Shown here piece after piece: positions 10,200 to 22,512 of a stretch of DNA of 33,441 nt. Positions within the stretch are counted from its first letter, which is position 1; every line of letters starts with the position of its first letter. The position numbers and the translations under genes are program-made. Below the pieces are notes generated by a model that did not search any database, had not been told where the DNA came from, and saw only the letters and a program-made list of their open reading frames with translations. Source of the DNA: Candidatus Cloacimonadota bacterium (GTDB lineage: Bacteria; Cloacimonadota; Cloacimonadia; Cloacimonadales; TCS61); assembly GCA_021736135.1 (NCBI GenBank), contig JAIPGO010000041.1, forward strand, positions 1 to 33,441. The letters run 5' to 3'.

Positions 10200-10364
10200 C
10201 CAGGTAACCTTAATCTGAACCAGGGGTTCACTATAACTGACTTGTGAAACACACCGGAAAAACTCTTCCAATAAACTTAAAAAAAGAAAACCAGGCATCC
10301 CCCCGTATAATTATTCATCATATGGGTTAACTCCTTATTTAATAAAGTAATATTCAGGATTTAT
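10200..10364. other. Intergenic spacer, nothing recognised
   Basis: There is no reading frame with protein-like content, promoter or repeat that I can support. It sits between a terminator and the first MITE-like element. Confidence 0.5.
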
Positions 10365-10524
10365 CCCATATTGTGCAGTAGAAATTTGCGAATAGCAGTA
10401 AGATTTTGGCACAGAGAGAGTTAGATAATTTTCATAAATATAAAAATAATATTCAAAAAAATCTCTAACTCTTCTGTACTCAAAATCTTACTACTCTTCA
10501 TCAAATCCTACTGCACAAAATGAG
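10365..10524. repeat. MITE-like palindromic element, copy 1
   Basis: A 160-bp element whose two halves are imperfect inverted repeats over almost their whole length. The ends read CCCATATTGTGCAGTAG and, inverted, CTCATTTTGTGCAGTAG. Inner paired blocks include GCAGTAAGATTTTG with CAAAATCTTACTAC and AGAGTTAGA-type arms. A second copy lies at 13222-13393. It has no coding capacity. Both copies are flanked by TTTAT-like sequence, so a TA target is possible but not shown. Confidence 0.8.
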
Positions 10525-10550
10525 TTTATCTCTTATAATTCCCGGTACGT

Positions 10551-10717
10551 GATAAATTTGTATAGCGTAAGGTTGCACCGCTGGTGCTACCTTATGTAAA
10601 AAATGAAACGCCCCCCACCCTATCGGCACGCAGCGCCGATGGGGTGGGGGGGGGGGATGCGTCATTCATAAGGTAATCTCGGAGTACCGAGCCAACCTTA
10701 CGCTATACAAATTTATC
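10551..10717. repeat. Cloverleaf-like palindromic element with 25-bp perfect terminal repeats
   Basis: The 167-bp element has perfect 25-bp inverted ends (10551-10575 and 10693-10717, starting GATAAATTTGTATAGCGTAA). Inside lie a side hairpin GCACC-GCT-GGTGC (10575-10587), a second side hairpin CTCGG-AGTA-CCGAG (10678-10691), a 9-bp stem TACCTTATG/CATAAGGTA (10588-10596 with 10667-10675), and an apical GC hairpin built from a C-run, ATCGGC/GCCGAT and a G-run. The G-run at 10646-10656 is 11 bases and may vary in length. One strand would fold like a three-armed cloverleaf. No coding capacity. Confidence 0.8.
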
Positions 10718-10798
10718 CCTTTCAGGGAAATGAACTTCACAACAGTCGAGGTACTTTAACAATTTCGGGGGGATGCGTGCTAAAAAAAAGAAAACTGC

Positions 10799-10827
10799 TT
10801 GACAGTATGGCAGGAAGAACTGAATAT
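10799..10827 (+). promoter_or_regulatory. Candidate promoter of gene A
   Basis: TTGACA (10799-10804), a 17-bp spacer and GAATAT (10822-10827). It is the only good -35 box between the palindromic elements and gene A. It would give a leader of about 150 nt containing the hairpin at 10906-10959. Confidence 0.4.
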
Positions 10828-10905
10828 TAAATCAGTTAAAGATAAGTGAATCTTTTTGATCTTAATATACTGAAAAATAAGCAGCAACACGACAGAGACG
10901 ACTAT

Positions 10906-10959
10906 GCTGAGTGCGGAAAAGTGAAAATTTCGGGGGAAGTTACCTTTCCGCACCTCAGC
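10906..10959 (+). promoter_or_regulatory. Leader hairpin upstream of gene A
   Basis: The arms GCTGAGTGCGGAAA (10906-10919) and TTTCCGCACCTCAGC (10945-10959) pair over 14 bp with one bulged base, enclosing a 25-nt loop containing TTTCGGGGG. It ends 17 nt before the Shine-Dalgarno sequence of gene A. It may be a 5' UTR structure; no known riboswitch was recognised. Confidence 0.4.
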
Positions 10960-10985
10960 TAAATACAGAAAACCTGGAGGAAATG

Positions 10986-13115
10986 ATGAAGAGAACCTTC
11001 GTTATTTTATTGTTGCTGGTGTTGAGCATAAGTTTGCTGGCAGAAATATTTCCGCAGAAGACCGAAAAATATACTGCGGACCGTTCTGTAAAAGCCCGCT
11101 CAGTTACCAGATCCGTAACCCGAGACGTTCCCGATTGGGAATGGGAAGTTCCCCCGCAGTCATTATTAACCAATTATGCAGACTATTTTCAAGCGTATGG
11201 AGCTTTACCAATTGCCTTGCAGCCAGATGAACATGGTAGCGGTATTTATATTGTTTACCGCGTAAAAGACCAAGCAGGCAACAGTGAAGTAAGTTATTCC
11301 TATATTGATGCAGAAGGCAATGTGCTGGCATCACAGGGTATGGGTGAAGTCGGTTATTATTGCGATGCTGAAGTTGACCAGCAAACCGGTGACGTGTTTG
11401 CCACCTGGCATGCGGCTATACCCGGCACACCCGAAACGCTTGACTGCTTGGTAACTTATGATCTTTATCATATTATGTTGAGTCACGGATTGTGGAAAGA
11501 TCCCGTGATCACGGTTATTGATTCCAGTGATCCCCCTATTCCTGACCCTACTGAAAATGATGAATTCATCTGGCCTGAGCTGGCGATAGGTCCTTCACCA
11601 ACTGCGGGTAAGCAGCGTCTATATATGATTGCTTCTAATAATATTGCTGCCGATGGTGCAGTTGGCTTTCCTTCCGAAAATCCGATAATCTGCTGGGCAG
11701 ATTTTGATCAGAATGATCTGGATCTGCAAAGCGATCTGGACTGGAATTACCGTACTATAGCCACTTTTGACAGCTGGAATGCCGAAGACCCAATGTGGTA
11801 TCGCGGCTTCAAAGCCTGGACTGTTATCGATAACAAGGTCATCTTTGCCGGCTATCGCCTTTCTAATGAAGATTATGATCCGGATGAGATGTTCTGCTTC
11901 GTAAACGAGAATTATGGCGAAGGTGAATTCGTGGAGTATTACCAGGAACTACAGATTCCGGAAGATAATCCGAGCTGGGAATATAATGGTTTCACCTGGT
12001 GTATGTATTCTGATCTGACAACGTATCCTGATGGACCTCCTTCTGAGCCATATCCTGATGTTTATCAGAGTTTTATCGATTCCGGCAGGTTCAATCTATA
12101 TCCTTCCCAGGATGGCAACAGTGTAACCTGGGGTGGAGCGTTAGGCATATTGTTTGATATTGATCCTGCTCAATTGAATATGTATCGTCCGCTCTGGTAT
12201 CAGATATATCCAAAAATCTTCCGATTTGATCTCACAACCAATGAATTCAGCTTCACAGATGTATATCCCAGCGGAGCAAATCCCAATGACGGAATTCCGA
12301 TGAAGCCCTGGGATCTTGATGAAGATGGTGAATATGACGAAGTATGGGATGACAATATGCCTAAGTGGGCAGAAGACTGGCCTATATTCCATTATGATGA
12401 GGATTCTGCTTTTTATTACAACCATTACTATGTGACCAGCAATCCGGATTATGGCTGGATGGTATATATCTGGGTGGACGGTTTAAATGCCAAAGAAGCA
12501 AACGAGGGAACGGCAGGTTTTGAAAACTGGGTTGCCACGCCGGAAATTGCCATTTGTGCATCTAATAACTGGGGTATGACCTGGAGCGATCCCATTTTTA
12601 TGAATGCTAATCCGGAAAGTGAAAACTATCAGGAAGAACTGGATGGTATGATCCCCTGTTTTGTGTATCCCGGAGATGTAATTGAAGATGCCGGAGATAA
12701 CATGGGAATTCTGCATCTATTTTTTCTGGATGATAATGACTTTGGTTCTTTCCACAGCCAGCAGCAGGGTCTGAATAACGGTTCCACCTTCGAATATGCT
12801 GCCATCAGGATTGATTTTAATCTTAATGCAGCTCCCGATAACGAACTGGTTCAGGCTCCCTCAATGACCAGGAATTATCCTAATCCTTTTAATCCGCAAA
12901 CGACTATTGAATTTGAACTGAAAAATCCGGGAAATATGAAGATTGACATTTACAATGTTAAGGGTCAGAAAGTGGAAACCCTCACCAACGAATTTTACGA
13001 TCAAGGGAAACATACTCTCATCTGGAATGCTGACAACCTGCCTTCCGGTATGTATTTCTACAAAGCTGATAATGAAGGCTATGTCACCACAAACAGGATG
13101 ATATTGCTGAAATAG
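10986..13115 (+). CDS. Exported Asp-box protein with Por-type sorting domain (paralogue A)
   Basis: First of four paralogues (A-D). The chosen ATG at 10986 is 5 bases after GGAGG and opens a clear signal peptide (MKRTFVILLLLVLSISLLA, mature end EIFPQK); ATG 10983 is possible, and the longer GTG frame from 10911 runs through a leader hairpin and is rejected. The mature protein has a PDWEWEVPPQ block, a NYADYFQAYG block, a DLDEDGEYDE calcium-loop-like motif, an Asp-box-like SNNWGMTWSDP (from about 526) and YPNPFNP at 631-637, ending MILLK. Asp boxes are turns in sialidase-type beta-propellers, so a propeller-like surface protein is likely. No catalytic residues were identified. Terminator at 13132. 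Confidence 0.8.
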   Translation: MKRTFVILLLLVLSISLLAEIFPQKTEKYTADRSVKARSVTRSVTRDVPDWEWEVPPQSLLTNYADYFQAYGALPIALQPDEHGSGIYIVYRVKDQAGNSEVSYSYIDAEGNVLASQGMGEVGYYCDAEVDQQTGDVFATWHAAIPGTPETLDCLVTYDLYHIMLSHGLWKDPVITVIDSSDPPIPDPTENDEFIWPELAIGPSPTAGKQRLYMIASNNIAADGAVGFPSENPIICWADFDQNDLDLQSDLDWNYRTIATFDSWNAEDPMWYRGFKAWTVIDNKVIFAGYRLSNEDYDPDEMFCFVNENYGEGEFVEYYQELQIPEDNPSWEYNGFTWCMYSDLTTYPDGPPSEPYPDVYQSFIDSGRFNLYPSQDGNSVTWGGALGILFDIDPAQLNMYRPLWYQIYPKIFRFDLTTNEFSFTDVYPSGANPNDGIPMKPWDLDEDGEYDEVWDDNMPKWAEDWPIFHYDEDSAFYYNHYYVTSNPDYGWMVYIWVDGLNAKEANEGTAGFENWVATPEIAICASNNWGMTWSDPIFMNANPESENYQEELDGMIPCFVYPGDVIEDAGDNMGILHLFFLDDNDFGSFHSQQQGLNNGSTFEYAAIRIDFNLNAAPDNELVQAPSMTRNYPNPFNPQTTIEFELKNPGNMKIDIYNVKGQKVETLTNEFYDQGKHTLIWNADNLPSGMYFYKADNEGYVTTNRMILLK

Positions 13116-13160: not shown

Positions 13161-13221
13161 TTTATTTTTTTTAACAATTCTCCCTGAAACTGTAGACAAT
13201 GTGAATGCAGTAACTCTTTAT

Positions 13222-13393
13222 CCCATATTGTGCAGTAGAAATTTGCGAATAGCAGTAAGATTTTGGCACAGAGAGAGTTAGATAATTTTAATAAATATAA
13301 AAATAATATTCATAAAAAATTCTCTAACTCTTCTGTACTCATCCCGATATGCATCGGGACTACTCTTCATCAAATCCTACTGCACAAAATGGG
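13222..13393. repeat. MITE-like palindromic element, copy 2
   Basis: It is nearly identical to 10365-10524 over most of its length. Where copy 1 has an AAATCTT-containing block, this copy carries a small palindrome TCCCGATATGCATCGGGA, making it 12 bp longer. A 76-residue frame across it (from 13263) is not protein-like and is not called. Confidence 0.8.
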
Positions 13394-13489
13394 TTTATAT
13401 CTTTTCAATTTCACAGTGTTGTTGAGGTGCGGTAGCGAGTTCAAGATTGAACATGTTATCATTACTTATACCGCCGAAAAAATTATTAC

Positions 13490-13646
13490 TTGACGTATTA
13501 AAAATTACTTTTAGTTTATGATATGTGAAGGTTGAGCGATACTGAAAGATTAATATTCAGCAGCAGGATAAAGGATAATTTGTGATCAAAAGTTAATGTA
13601 ATCGTCTTATGCGGCTACGGGGAGAAAGTTATAACAGGGGATAATT
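13490..13646 (+). promoter_or_regulatory. Promoter and leader of the gene B operon
   Basis: TTGACG (13490-13495) with a 16-bp spacer to TAGTTT (13512-13517), preceded by ATTATTAC as in the upstream regions of genes C and D. The leader contains TGCGGCTACGGGGAG (13610-13624), matching TGCGGATACGAGGAG upstream of C and D, and ends in an AGGGG ribosome-binding site. This is the most diverged of the three copies. Confidence 0.5.
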
Positions 13647-19856: not shown

Positions 19857-19869
19857 AAAAATATAAGTG

Positions 19870-19980
19870 GACGTTCACCAGTGCGCAGCATGGGGAATGA
19901 ACACGATACTTACCTCAGAACTGGCAGGTATAAGGTCGTCATTCATTCCCCAAACTCGCAGGCTCGCTCTGGTGAACGTC
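19870..19980. repeat. Long REP-like palindrome, copy 1
   Basis: The outer arms GACGTTCACCAG and CTGGTGAACGTC are exact inverse complements, and an inner pair GGGGAATGAA/TTCATTCCCC nests inside. It contains CACCAGTGCGCAGCATGG (19876-19893), which differs at one base from the REP flanking the RAYT gene. It lies 13 bp after the PorV-like gene and may serve as its terminator-like end. Confidence 0.8.
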
Positions 19981-20001
19981 TGACTTAGAAAAAAGTATTA
20001 C

Positions 20002-20095
20002 TTGACAAAGTAAAAATTACTTTAGATTTTTAGGTGAGAAGATTGTAAACGCTGTGTGCGGATACGAGGAGTTTTAAATATATTTGGGGGTTATT
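20002..20095 (+). promoter_or_regulatory. Promoter and leader of gene C
   Basis: TTGACA (20002-20007), a 15-bp spacer and TAGATT (20023-20028), then the leader motif TGCGGATACGAGGAG (20057-20071) and GGGGG 5 bases before the ATG. The block is nearly identical to 22961-23055 upstream of gene D. Confidence 0.6.
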
Positions 20096-22042
20096 ATGAA
20101 ACGAATTTCAATTTATTTTATGTTACTGTTTTTGTTTTCTTTATCGTGGGCAGATCGAATTATACCTGACTGGGACTGGAATATTCCACCGCAGGCATTA
20201 CTCGAGAACTATGCTGATTATTTTCAGGCTTATAATGAAACACCTGTGGCCGTTCAACCGGATGCAGAGGGCGGGATTTATATAATTTATCGAGTGCAAG
20301 CCGGGGCTGGTGATAATGAAGTGTATTACACTTATATCGATAGCGATGGAAATATTACAACGGAAGGATTAGGTTTTTCCGGTCAATATTGCGATGCCGA
20401 AATTGACGAATTTTCAGGAGATCCCTTTGCCTGCTGGCATGGAACTCCATTGGACGGTTCAACTGGTTTCGATAGTTTTTTATCTTATGACCTCTATAAC
20501 ATTGCCGGGAGTCCGGGTGCCTGGAAAGAAACGCCAATTACGGTGATCGATGGTGATGCCATGCAGGCATATTACCAATATGCAGATGATGAATTTTTCT
20601 GGCCCATAGTGCACATTGGAGCATCACCCCTGGAAGATAATCAGCGCGTATATTTGATGTCGAGTAATATAACAACATCTCACGGTACTGAGAGTCTTCC
20701 CTGTGAAAACGTTCTTTTGTGCTATGCTGATTTCAATGCAGATTCACTGGAAATACAGAGTGACCTGGAATGGAATTATACCAGCATTCCTTTTCTTGAT
20801 GCCTTGAGCGCTGAAGACCCATATTGGGGAAGACCAATAAAATCCTGGACCGTGGTAGATAATCAAGTCATTGTTTTTGGATATCTTAGCTATGAAGAAG
20901 ATTATCCGGGAGTTGATAATTACCTATTCTCCTGTGTGAATGAGAATTATGGCGAAGGAGAGTGGCAGAATTATTTTTATGAATCAGGTATTCCGGAATT
21001 GGAATTCCCGGGTGGAGTATTTGATTATTCCTGGGAAATAATTCATACCTCAAAATTCAATGTGATCTCTGTAGAAAACGGTACGAGAGTAATATTCCCA
21101 GGGATGATGGGATTGACTTTTGACAGCGGAACCGGACCCGGATATTATAATCCGCTGGATTTCATGATCTTTCCCAAGACCTTTAGATTTGATTTGAATA
21201 CACATGAATTTGATCCCTGTTTTGACGTGTATCCTATGGGAGCCAATCCCAATGATAACATTCCCATGAAACCCTGGGATGTTGATGAGGATGGCATAAT
21301 TGATGAAGTCTGGGCTGAGGACTGGCCCATATTCCATTATGACCCTGATGGAGCATTTCATTATAATCAAAGCTATCTTACTGCCAATAAAGAAAATGGC
21401 TGGCTGGCTTACGTCTGGGTGGATGGGTTGAATGCCGTGAAAGCACATGAAGAATATGAAGGATTTGAAAGCTGGGAGGAAAAACCGGAAATTGCAATCT
21501 GCATTTCCGATGATGATGGTTACACCTGGAGTGATCCCATTTTTATGAATGCCAACCCGGAAAGTGAAAATTATCTGGCAGAACTGGATGGAATGATCCC
21601 CTGCTACGTGTATCCCGGTGACAGGATCAAAGAAATTGATGAATGCACGGGAGAACTGGAGCTGTTCTTTCTGGATGATTATGTTTATGGTTCGAATGAC
21701 AGCAATGGTTCAATGTATGAATTTGCCTCTATCAGGATCGATTTCTGTTATCTGGATAATGATCAGACCGATCTGGTGTCTGTGTCCTTAATGGCCAGGA
21801 ATTATCCAAATCCCTTTAATCCGGAAACTACTATTGAGTTTGAATTGCAGGCTGCCGGAGATGTGCAGATCGAGATATATAATGTTAAAGGACAGAAAAT
21901 CTGCACTTTGACAGATGCTCAATATCCGGCAGGGAAAAACAGCATCGTCTGGAAAGCTGAAGATGTTCCATCCGGAGTATATTTCTATAAAATCAAGAAT
22001 GGCAGATATACCACTTCCAAGAAGATGGTATTGATGAAATAA
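20096..22042 (+). CDS. Exported Asp-box protein with Por-type sorting domain (paralogue C)
   Basis: This is the shortest paralogue, 648 residues from ATG 20096. A TTG frame start at 20084 is rejected because GGGGG at 20086-20090 is well spaced for the ATG. The signal peptide MKRISIYFMLLFLFSLSWA runs almost directly into IPDWDWNIPP, so the 20-40 residue linker found in A, B and D is missing. It has DVDEDGIIDE, the Asp-box ISDDDGYTWSDP, a GMIPCYVYPGD block and YPNPFNP at 570-576, ending KKMVLMK. It shares 61 identical bases with gene B (20204-20264) and its upstream region with gene D, so it looks like part of a recent duplication series. Function unknown. Confidence 0.8.
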   Translation: MKRISIYFMLLFLFSLSWADRIIPDWDWNIPPQALLENYADYFQAYNETPVAVQPDAEGGIYIIYRVQAGAGDNEVYYTYIDSDGNITTEGLGFSGQYCDAEIDEFSGDPFACWHGTPLDGSTGFDSFLSYDLYNIAGSPGAWKETPITVIDGDAMQAYYQYADDEFFWPIVHIGASPLEDNQRVYLMSSNITTSHGTESLPCENVLLCYADFNADSLEIQSDLEWNYTSIPFLDALSAEDPYWGRPIKSWTVVDNQVIVFGYLSYEEDYPGVDNYLFSCVNENYGEGEWQNYFYESGIPELEFPGGVFDYSWEIIHTSKFNVISVENGTRVIFPGMMGLTFDSGTGPGYYNPLDFMIFPKTFRFDLNTHEFDPCFDVYPMGANPNDNIPMKPWDVDEDGIIDEVWAEDWPIFHYDPDGAFHYNQSYLTANKENGWLAYVWVDGLNAVKAHEEYEGFESWEEKPEIAICISDDDGYTWSDPIFMNANPESENYLAELDGMIPCYVYPGDRIKEIDECTGELELFFLDDYVYGSNDSNGSMYEFASIRIDFCYLDNDQTDLVSVSLMARNYPNPFNPETTIEFELQAAGDVQIEIYNVKGQKICTLTDAQYPAGKNSIVWKAEDVPSGVYFYKIKNGRYTTSKKMVLMK

Positions 22043-22063
22043 ACTGAGTGAACTGGCTGAGCG

Positions 22064-22175
22064 GACGTTCACCTATGCGCAGCAAGGGGAATGAACACGG
22101 ACATTGCCTCAGAATTGGCAGGTAAAAATGTCTTCATTCATTCCCCAAACTCGCAGGCTCGCTCTGGTGAACATC
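22064..22175. repeat. Long REP-like palindrome, copy 2
   Basis: The arms are GACGTTCACC and GGTGAACATC, with one mismatch, and the inner GGGGAATGAA/TTCATTCCCC pair is kept. It starts 21 bp after the stop of gene C and is followed by a 51-bp spacer that is repeated after copy 3. Confidence 0.8.
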
Positions 22176-22226
22176 TGACTTAGAAAATTGTCTTTCGTGA
22201 GAAATGCTTTTGACGGTGATTAAGTG

Positions 22227-22351
22227 GACGTTCACCTGTGCGCAGCATGGGGAATGAACACGGAAAACAATGGATGATGGACAATGGACGATGGAGGATT
22301 ATGAATCAAAATGGTCGTGTTCATTCCCCAAGCTGCGCTCTGGTTAACGTC
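22227..22351. repeat. Long REP-like palindrome, copy 3, with altered centre
   Basis: The arms are GACGTTCACC and GGTTAACGTC. The central part differs from the other copies: it carries an ATGGA/TGGAC-rich low-complexity segment (about 22269-22295) that looks inserted or slipped. Confidence 0.75.
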
Positions 22352-22402
22352 TGACTTAGAAAATTGTCTTTCGTGAGAATTGCTTTTGACAGTGATTAAG
22401 TG

Positions 22403-22512
22403 GACGTTCACCAGTGCGCAGCATGGGGAATGAACACGGAAATAGCTTCAGAAGTTTGAGGAATAAGGTCGTCATTCATTCCCCAAGCTCATAAATTCGC
22501 ACTGGTGAACGA
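22403..22512. repeat. Long REP-like palindrome, copy 4
   Basis: The left half matches copy 1 closely. The right half is changed near the end (CACTGGTGAACG), and the usual following CTGACTTAG is lost. With copies 2 and 3 it forms a tandem group spaced by about 165-175 bp. Confidence 0.75.

Follow-up and report, generated by a model that had tools for sequence, protein, structure and literature searches.

A 33,441-nucleotide stretch of a Candidatus Cloacimonadota genome (contig JAIPGO010000041.1, positions 1 to 33,441; hereafter the window) carries at 10551-10717 a folding sequence that was picked out from its letters alone as a cloverleaf-like element (the original prediction). This folded core is very probably the palindromic middle of a miniature inverted-repeat transposable element (MITE) that derives from an IS4-type insertion sequence (IS) of Cloacimonadota, and whose DDE transposase inserts beside promoter -35 boxes in one orientation. 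As read from the sequence, the ends of the element, its duplications, offset, orientation and stacking, its autonomous relatives and the orthologous promoters that lack it all support this assignment. The unit is larger than 10551-10717, as copies have common left and right arms outside that range, and the window copy spans 10292-10779 because a second hairpin repeat (10366-10524) interrupts its left arm; the length to GATG is 484 nt here and 311-323 nt in the usual copies. Like other MITEs, it is short, carries no transposase gene and has inverted ends and a target duplication. The features of the locus are as follows (ORF, open reading frame):

10292-10779, +, whole non-autonomous element (MITE); its right end faces the promoter and its arms are common to a 40-copy family
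10292-10305, +, left terminal inverted repeat CAGGCATCCCCCCG
10766-10779, +, right terminal repeat CGGGGGGATGCGTG
10276-10291, +, left target-site duplication, 16 nt with 1 mismatch against the right copy, the last 13 nt being identical (13 nt computed, extended to 16 by eye)
10780-10795, +, right target-site duplication
10799-10804, +, host -35 hexamer TTGACA, 3 nt (TGC) past the right duplication
10823-10828, +, candidate -10 AATATT after an 18-nt spacer, proposed from its consensus match alone
10551-10717, +, folded core of 167 nt, the feature of the original prediction
10551-10567, +, closing stem, 5' side, paired with 10701-10717
10568-10594, +, left hairpin of a four-way junction
10613-10653, +, apical GC hairpin
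10669-10700, +, right hairpin of the four-way junction
10366-10524, +, different hairpin repeat inserted in the left arm, with flanking TTTATC at 10360-10365 and 10525-10530 and a second copy near 13217-13403
10911-13115, +, downstream ORF that would be served by the promoter

A dispersed family with common ends

The window's own genome (G000) comprises 4.14 Mb in 148 contigs and is 98 % complete. With the 167-nt core as query we found at least 40 places in it at 81-100 % identity (40 of 79 candidates were scored), and further cut or partly deleted cores are present beyond these. The flanks of the copies are conserved as well, the unit starting at a left end CTGGCATCCCCCCG and finishing at a right end CGGGGGGATG plus four bases, which read CCAG, CGAG, CGAA, TTAA or CGTG. 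These last four bases vary by subfamily (CCAG, CGAG, CGAA, TTAA), and the left end is mostly a constant CTGG. The sequence CGGGGGGATG occurs 48 + 46 times in G000 vs 0 + 1 for its reversed control, and other families, with identical ends and different interiors, account for many of these sites. Among these families CGGGGGGATGCCAG is the commonest form of the right end, and it is identical in an autonomous IS, L114, of the related genome G004.

Insertion at a fixed distance from TTGAC

Target duplications were detected without use of TTGAC, in a scan that gave 60 rows from 35 loci, most elements being read on both strands. In 28 of these 35 duplication-bearing loci, TTGAC lies exactly 3 nt past the right duplication, at 29 distinct sites of which 26 read TTGACA and 3 TTGACT; the chance expectation at this offset is about 0.03 for 34 elements. 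As for the remaining loci, the offset is 2 nt at L006, where the duplication match is one base longer; at L027 and L030 only the mirrored reading passed, an earlier reading having given 3 nt; L005 and L073 have TTGCCA and TTGGCA, respectively, at 3 nt; and at L031 and L064 another element end comes next. Perfect duplications in this genome measure 10-18 bp, most often 13 or 15, and the overall range of duplications is 9-18 bp. The distance from the right junction to the hexamer, with the four terminal bases allowed for, is 13-22 nt, and 16-18 nt in 33 of 47 sites. Within the 40-copy family, TTGAC is found 15-29 nt past GATG in 28 of the 35 copies with a readable right flank, five copies with an absent or altered right end or flank being left uncounted.

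The arrangement is strictly one-sided: a mirrored GTCAA 8-34 nt outside the left end occurs at none of the 37 left ends located among the 40 copies. Random insertion, with only those copies surviving selection that lie just upstream of -35 boxes, would draw some support from the harm that in-gene insertions often do, but it could yield neither the exact 3-nt offset nor the lack of mirrored hexamers at 37 left ends, and the same rule holds in distant IS relatives. We regard this explanation as very improbable.

Copies also follow one another. We counted 19 stacked junctions (right end, 12-26 nt, left end) among loci up to L112, a count in which several are one junction on both strands and some look degenerate or due to chance; they include L024, L031/L066, L035, L064, L067, L069, L072 and L074 and, in a relative, L108. 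Taken together, a precise, one-direction preference of an IS4-like group for DNA just upstream of -35 boxes is well supported by these sequence comparisons.

The hexamers as host promoters

If TTGACA belonged to the element, which would then bring its own -35 box, TTGAC would be expected after nearly every copy, as is observed. However, a locus-specific duplication separates the element from TTGAC and recurs on its other side, and orthologous promoters without the element carry TTGAC at the same place, in one case by alignment and in the other by distance from the start codon. In the first case, a G019 site with two stacked elements (L108), the G004 and G000 orthologues align across the promoter and keep TTTGACA, with no element end within 120 nt upstream. 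In the second, a G026 element (L080) is followed by its duplication CTTATTGGGGAAA, then TTG, then TTGACA; in its G004 orthologue no end lies nearby and TTGACT stands about as far from the start codon, the alignment beginning inside the gene. A third orthologous-site search gave no match. As TTGAC is retained at orthologous promoters that lack the element, it belongs to the host, and a hexamer carried by the element has very little probability. These promoters, together with the dispersed copies, inverted ends and target duplications, bear out the mobile element proposed in the original prediction.

The sites resemble promoters in context and composition. At 25-28 nt from the first base of TTGAC lies a T-rich block with a T fraction of 0.54 at 47 insertion sites, vs 0.51 at other TTGAC upstream of ORFs (43), 0.32 at in-gene TTGAC (182) and 0.36 at remote TTGAC (85); the differences from in-gene and remote controls have p 7e-8 and 8e-5, respectively, values that are approximate as bases are treated as independent. 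An ORF follows within 400 nt at 38 of 45 sites and 54 of 223 controls by one gene rule; a stricter rule, with a limit of 200 nt, gives 24 of 47 and 43 of 310. When intergenic positions alone are compared, 24 of 38 sites and 43 of 128 control TTGAC are upstream of an ORF (p 0.0014). In relatives, 17 of 18 rows are followed after 26-162 nt by an ORF of 160 codons or more (three pairs are duplicates, and there is no control), and two own-genome sites precede tRNA genes, tRNA-Thr and tRNA-Leu (L003, L024).

These figures bear on what the transposase recognizes. It might read bare TTGAC, promoters being struck since they carry it, and we give this an even chance: the hexamer is nearly invariant (26 TTGACA and 3 TTGACT of 29), and the predicted fold of the transposase, described below, matches Tn5 alone and has no obvious extra docking domain. 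Against it, the sites have the T-rich block common to gene-upstream TTGAC and not to in-gene or remote TTGAC, and intergenic sites are more often upstream of an ORF than controls are (p 0.0014); survivor bias could add to both of these differences.

Autonomous relatives and their transposase

Of 59 genomes searched, five, the window's own included, contain the pattern of an end, 10-22 nt and TTGAC, with no control matches among the matches listed. Three of the five belong to one further genus within the family of the window's organism, and one genome, from another family, has a single match. Every occurrence of the exact right end CGGGGGGATGCCAG in G004 (6 of 6) and G026 (4 of 4) has TTGAC after it. 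A narrower pattern gave 24 stretches in named genomes, 13 of them from three Candidatus Cloacimonadota or Candidatus Stygibacter frigidus metagenome-assembled genomes; the other 11, one each from other organisms, are taken for chance, and in two of these (L089 and L096) no left end was seen.

Autonomous IS in the relatives are 1.5-1.8 kb long. L114 itself measures 1.49 kb, shares its right end with the MITE families, encodes a 465-residue transposase and is flanked by ATTTTGTAATAA on either side, then ATA, then TTGACA. At 1e-5, 46 of 147 genomes have a homologue of the transposase, and at 1e-30 the figure for the phylum is 26 of 124 genomes. Nine of 30 autonomous loci allowed both ends and a duplication to be placed (L118, L120, L122, L124, L125, L128, L130, L131 and L132); their proteins are 34-42 % identical to that of L114 where they are not L114 itself. 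In each of the nine, TTGACA lies 3 nt past the duplication, on the side downstream of the transposase gene. L131 and L122 had first been drawn with 4 nt and 0 nt, and motif-based placement of the ends gives 3 for both; the other 21 loci, many of them fragments or reaching a contig end, have no pair of ends with a duplication. By motif, right ends were located in 15 of 29 loci and TTGAC in 14 of these 15, nine being the placed copies and five decayed or cut.

A plasmid search found no homologue at 1e-5, and a phage-labelled homologue, MT838322 (27.8 % identity), has no such ends. A DDE transposase in the window's own genome (G000:C3, L115), adjoined by a left arm, was considered as a partner and rejected, as it belongs to a different IS with ends AACTSAYATTTCCGAGTTA that is nested in an element copy; this IS occupies 681-2498 of L115, and its DDE transposase frame has one in-frame TAG. 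L049 was likewise rejected as coding sequence.

All 14 members of the transposase group match Pfam DDE_Tnp_1, a few of them two related DDE families in addition. D104, D192 and E327 are invariant, in a single ORF and with a spacing that fits the IS4 pattern D(60-110)D(100-150)E, and probably are the catalytic residues; Y320, R323, E327 and K334, invariant in the 14 sequences, form the motif Y-(2)-R-(3)-E-(6)-K. The NCBIfam models for IS4, IS701, IS1380 and IS1634 match, all far below their cut-offs (best curated model scores of 43 bits vs a cut-off of 160 for L114 and 49 vs 115 for L125), so that the group would be at most a new subgroup or a sister family. An AlphaFold2 model (mean pLDDT 85.7, pTM 0.84) was compared with the Protein Data Bank (PDB), and the five chains found at E <=0.001 are all Tn5 transposase (TM ~0.6, 12-13 % identity, alignments of 396-469 columns including gaps). 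By sequence, a search of solved structures gave two matches only, at E 0.5, to enolase. No Mutator-type transposase model matched at E 0.01 in Pfam (14 members) or at 0.1 in NCBIfam.

Integration of the casposon type, by Cas1, would also place a long duplication beside a fixed recognition sequence, as happens at CRISPR leaders. However, no Cas1 was found in G000 and the autonomous relatives have a DDE transposase, which leaves this route a negligible probability.

The folded core

The fold of the core is real and beyond chance: as DNA it reaches -60.1 kcal/mol (z -14.1) and as RNA -99.1 (z -12.6), and none of 200 shuffled cores folded equally well. The perfect 25-bp ends described in the original prediction exist in the window copy and are not general in the family, where the fifth pair of the arms is broken in 27 of the 36 copies that have letters there. 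The side hairpins, described as unrelated in sequence, are not wholly so, for both can be built on one TAAGGT/ACCTTA stem, and two alternative forms result, a 25-bp stem or a four-way junction.

Preservation of shape, likewise claimed, is visible for one of these forms. When 40 cores are aligned, the four-way junction shows 94.3 % paired cells vs 92.9 shuffled, 28 double-change cells vs 11.7, and seven pairs with a double change vs 4.3 (24 of 500 shuffles as high). Its covariation score is 0.069 vs 0.041 shuffled (0 of 500 as high), slid versions giving at most 0.025, whereas the 25-bp-stem form has no covariation excess on the same cores (0.032 vs 0.032 in the control). The compensatory changes largely mark subfamilies and thus represent few events; most fall in the apical GC hairpin and at a single pair of the right hairpin, and relatedness alone can beat shuffled controls. 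Template switching can also yield pair-keeping changes in DNA palindromes, and the covariation is therefore no proof of an RNA or of a shape recognized by a protein. No Rfam family matched in the window at gathering scores.

A strand that folds this strongly might suggest single-strand transposition, as the original prediction did, here of the HUH type (IS200/IS605- or REP-like), and REP-like hairpins are indeed mobilized in this way. To our knowledge, however, single-strand (HUH) elements make no target duplication, and the 9-18 bp duplications, the inverted ends and the DDE, Tn5-like enzyme of the relatives point to double-strand DDE transposition. We consider a single-strand route extremely unlikely. 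The rest of the element does not depend on the folded core, which is partly or entirely absent from some copies that retain the arms. Copies with the core wholly or partly deleted, or with ~190-310 bp inserted into it, are found at L043 (960), L044, L062, L050 and L056.

Other repeats in the window

The palindromic repeat at 10366-10524 and ~13217-13403 has ends CCATATTGTGCAGTAG / CTACTGCACAAAATGAG; its first copy lies inside the MITE with TTTATC duplications, and a related end is found at L046. Another repeat family lies at 19862-22511, with ends AAGTGGACGTTCACC / GGTGAACGTCTGACTTAG and dozens of short matches genome-wide, its tandem copies here having a common TTGAC-containing link. As a follower of the -35 rule it was rejected on 30 loci examined: TTGAC follows five of 13 right ends, at 13, 14, 26 and 26 nt for four that all belong to the window's own gene cluster and at 68 nt for the remaining one. 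This family serves as a negative control for the rule. Between 10911 and 25107 the window holds several paralogous ORFs with DNA blocks in common (60-94 % identity); three of these ORFs have a promoter-like TATTACTTGAC upstream (near 13490, 19999 and 22960).

Discussion

Several observations weigh against insertion beside promoters by a transposase of this group. Seven of 35 right flanks in the 40-copy family are without TTGAC; of these, L035 and L037 are stacked, L005 and L007 read TTGCCA, L009 TTGGAT and L026 TTGAAA at about the place, and L002 has nothing resembling the hexamer. One IS, L123/L151, lacks both duplication and TTGAC despite good inverted ends and reads TGGACA, and the spacing rule fails at the G019 orthologue of the L080 site (L210), where a right end lies 42 nt upstream of TTGACA. 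Nor does a classical -10 box stand out, TANNNT at a spacer of 16-18 being present in 5 of 47 sites vs 25 of 273 controls; a search for TATAAT or a Bacteroidota-type TAnnTTT box revealed the T-rich block and nothing else. Nine of 47 sites are 'in gene' under the stricter rule, and all gene-context figures hang on a crude gene caller. Finally, no intact autonomous copy was found in G000, a fragment appearing only at E 9e-6 and nothing at 1e-30, and action in trans on the 40-copy family is for this reason suggested by the common ends.

Oriented insertion upstream of promoters is known for the Mutator-type elements TnGBS, ISLre2 and ISKra4, with the junction 15-17 bp from the -35 region and duplications of 8-9 bp, and contact with the RNA polymerase initiation complex has been proposed for them (PMC3942029). 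The family described here likewise inserts in one orientation upstream of promoters, with its junction 13-22 nt from the hexamer, but its duplications are 9-18 bp, its fixed point lies 3 bp from the -35 box, and its transposase is not of the Mutator type and matches Tn5 in predicted fold. Insertion sequences that aim at motifs upstream of promoters are also cited in PMC10433421. The IS4 family comprises the subgroups IS4, IS231, IS4Sa, ISH8, IS10, IS50/Tn5 and ISPepr1 and makes duplications of 7-13 bp, about one helix turn (PMC2266710). Our group resembles it in its single-ORF DDE transposase, Y-2-R-3-E-6-K motif, DDE spacing, inverted ends and Tn5-like predicted fold, and differs in duplications that overlap but exceed that range and in being TTGAC-anchored and oriented. 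The same source calls the target-arm specificity of some IS4-subgroup elements 'spectacular', in passages that leave promoters unmentioned. Its IS1634/IS1549 elements also vary in duplication length, but over 8-514 bp and with an incomplete YREK, which is intact here (PMC2266710).

MITEAba12 is a short MITE mobilized by a co-resident IS, as we propose here, but is 113 bp long, has 9-bp AT-rich duplications and has no reported target sequence trend in the part of its description consulted (PMC6382973). An analogy is yeast Ty3, which inserts just upstream of the promoters of Pol III genes but is a retrotransposon guided by Pol III factors (PMC3942029). In the literature we found no report of promoter-upstream oriented insertion in the IS4/Tn5-type superfamily. 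What appears to be new is an IS4/Tn5-type lineage that inserts at promoters, with longer and variable duplications, a fixed 3-bp offset and MITEs riding along.

In the mechanism we propose, a DDE transposase would work in trans on CTGGCATCCCCCCG-type ends and join the element to double-stranded DNA beside promoters, reading the -35 box alone or together with RNA polymerase or sigma factor. The join on the near strand would fall exactly 3 bp before the -35 hexamer TTGAC(A/T) and that on the far strand 9-18 bp further upstream, giving a duplication of variable length. As the right end always points towards the promoter, the transposase-target complex would have to be an asymmetric one fixed to the -35 box, similarly to TnGBS/ISLre2. 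The core promoter would be unchanged, and probably functional, because the duplicated stretch restores the DNA beside the -35 box; the site would remain usable, and later copies would stack in front of earlier ones. The palindromic core would be passenger DNA that can extrude as a four-way junction. A more specific version is that a DDE lineage of the Tn5/IS4 type, unrelated to Mutator, evolved promoter-guided insertion in which sigma or RNA polymerase places the transposase on the -35 box, with the near join 3 bp upstream, a sliding far join and one orientation. We put this forward tentatively, at somewhat less than an even chance.

By its insertion habit the element would settle beside genes without breaking them. 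If guidance by sigma or RNA polymerase is correct, every promoter would offer a safe site for repeated insertion, preceded by a record of insertions in last-in-first order. If it holds in a Tn5/IS4-type lineage, oriented promoter-guided insertion would have arisen more than once, and the fold of Tn5, the best studied bacterial transposase, would become a place to look for promoter recognition. The elements may also act as natural tags for promoters in a phylum with hardly any cultured members.
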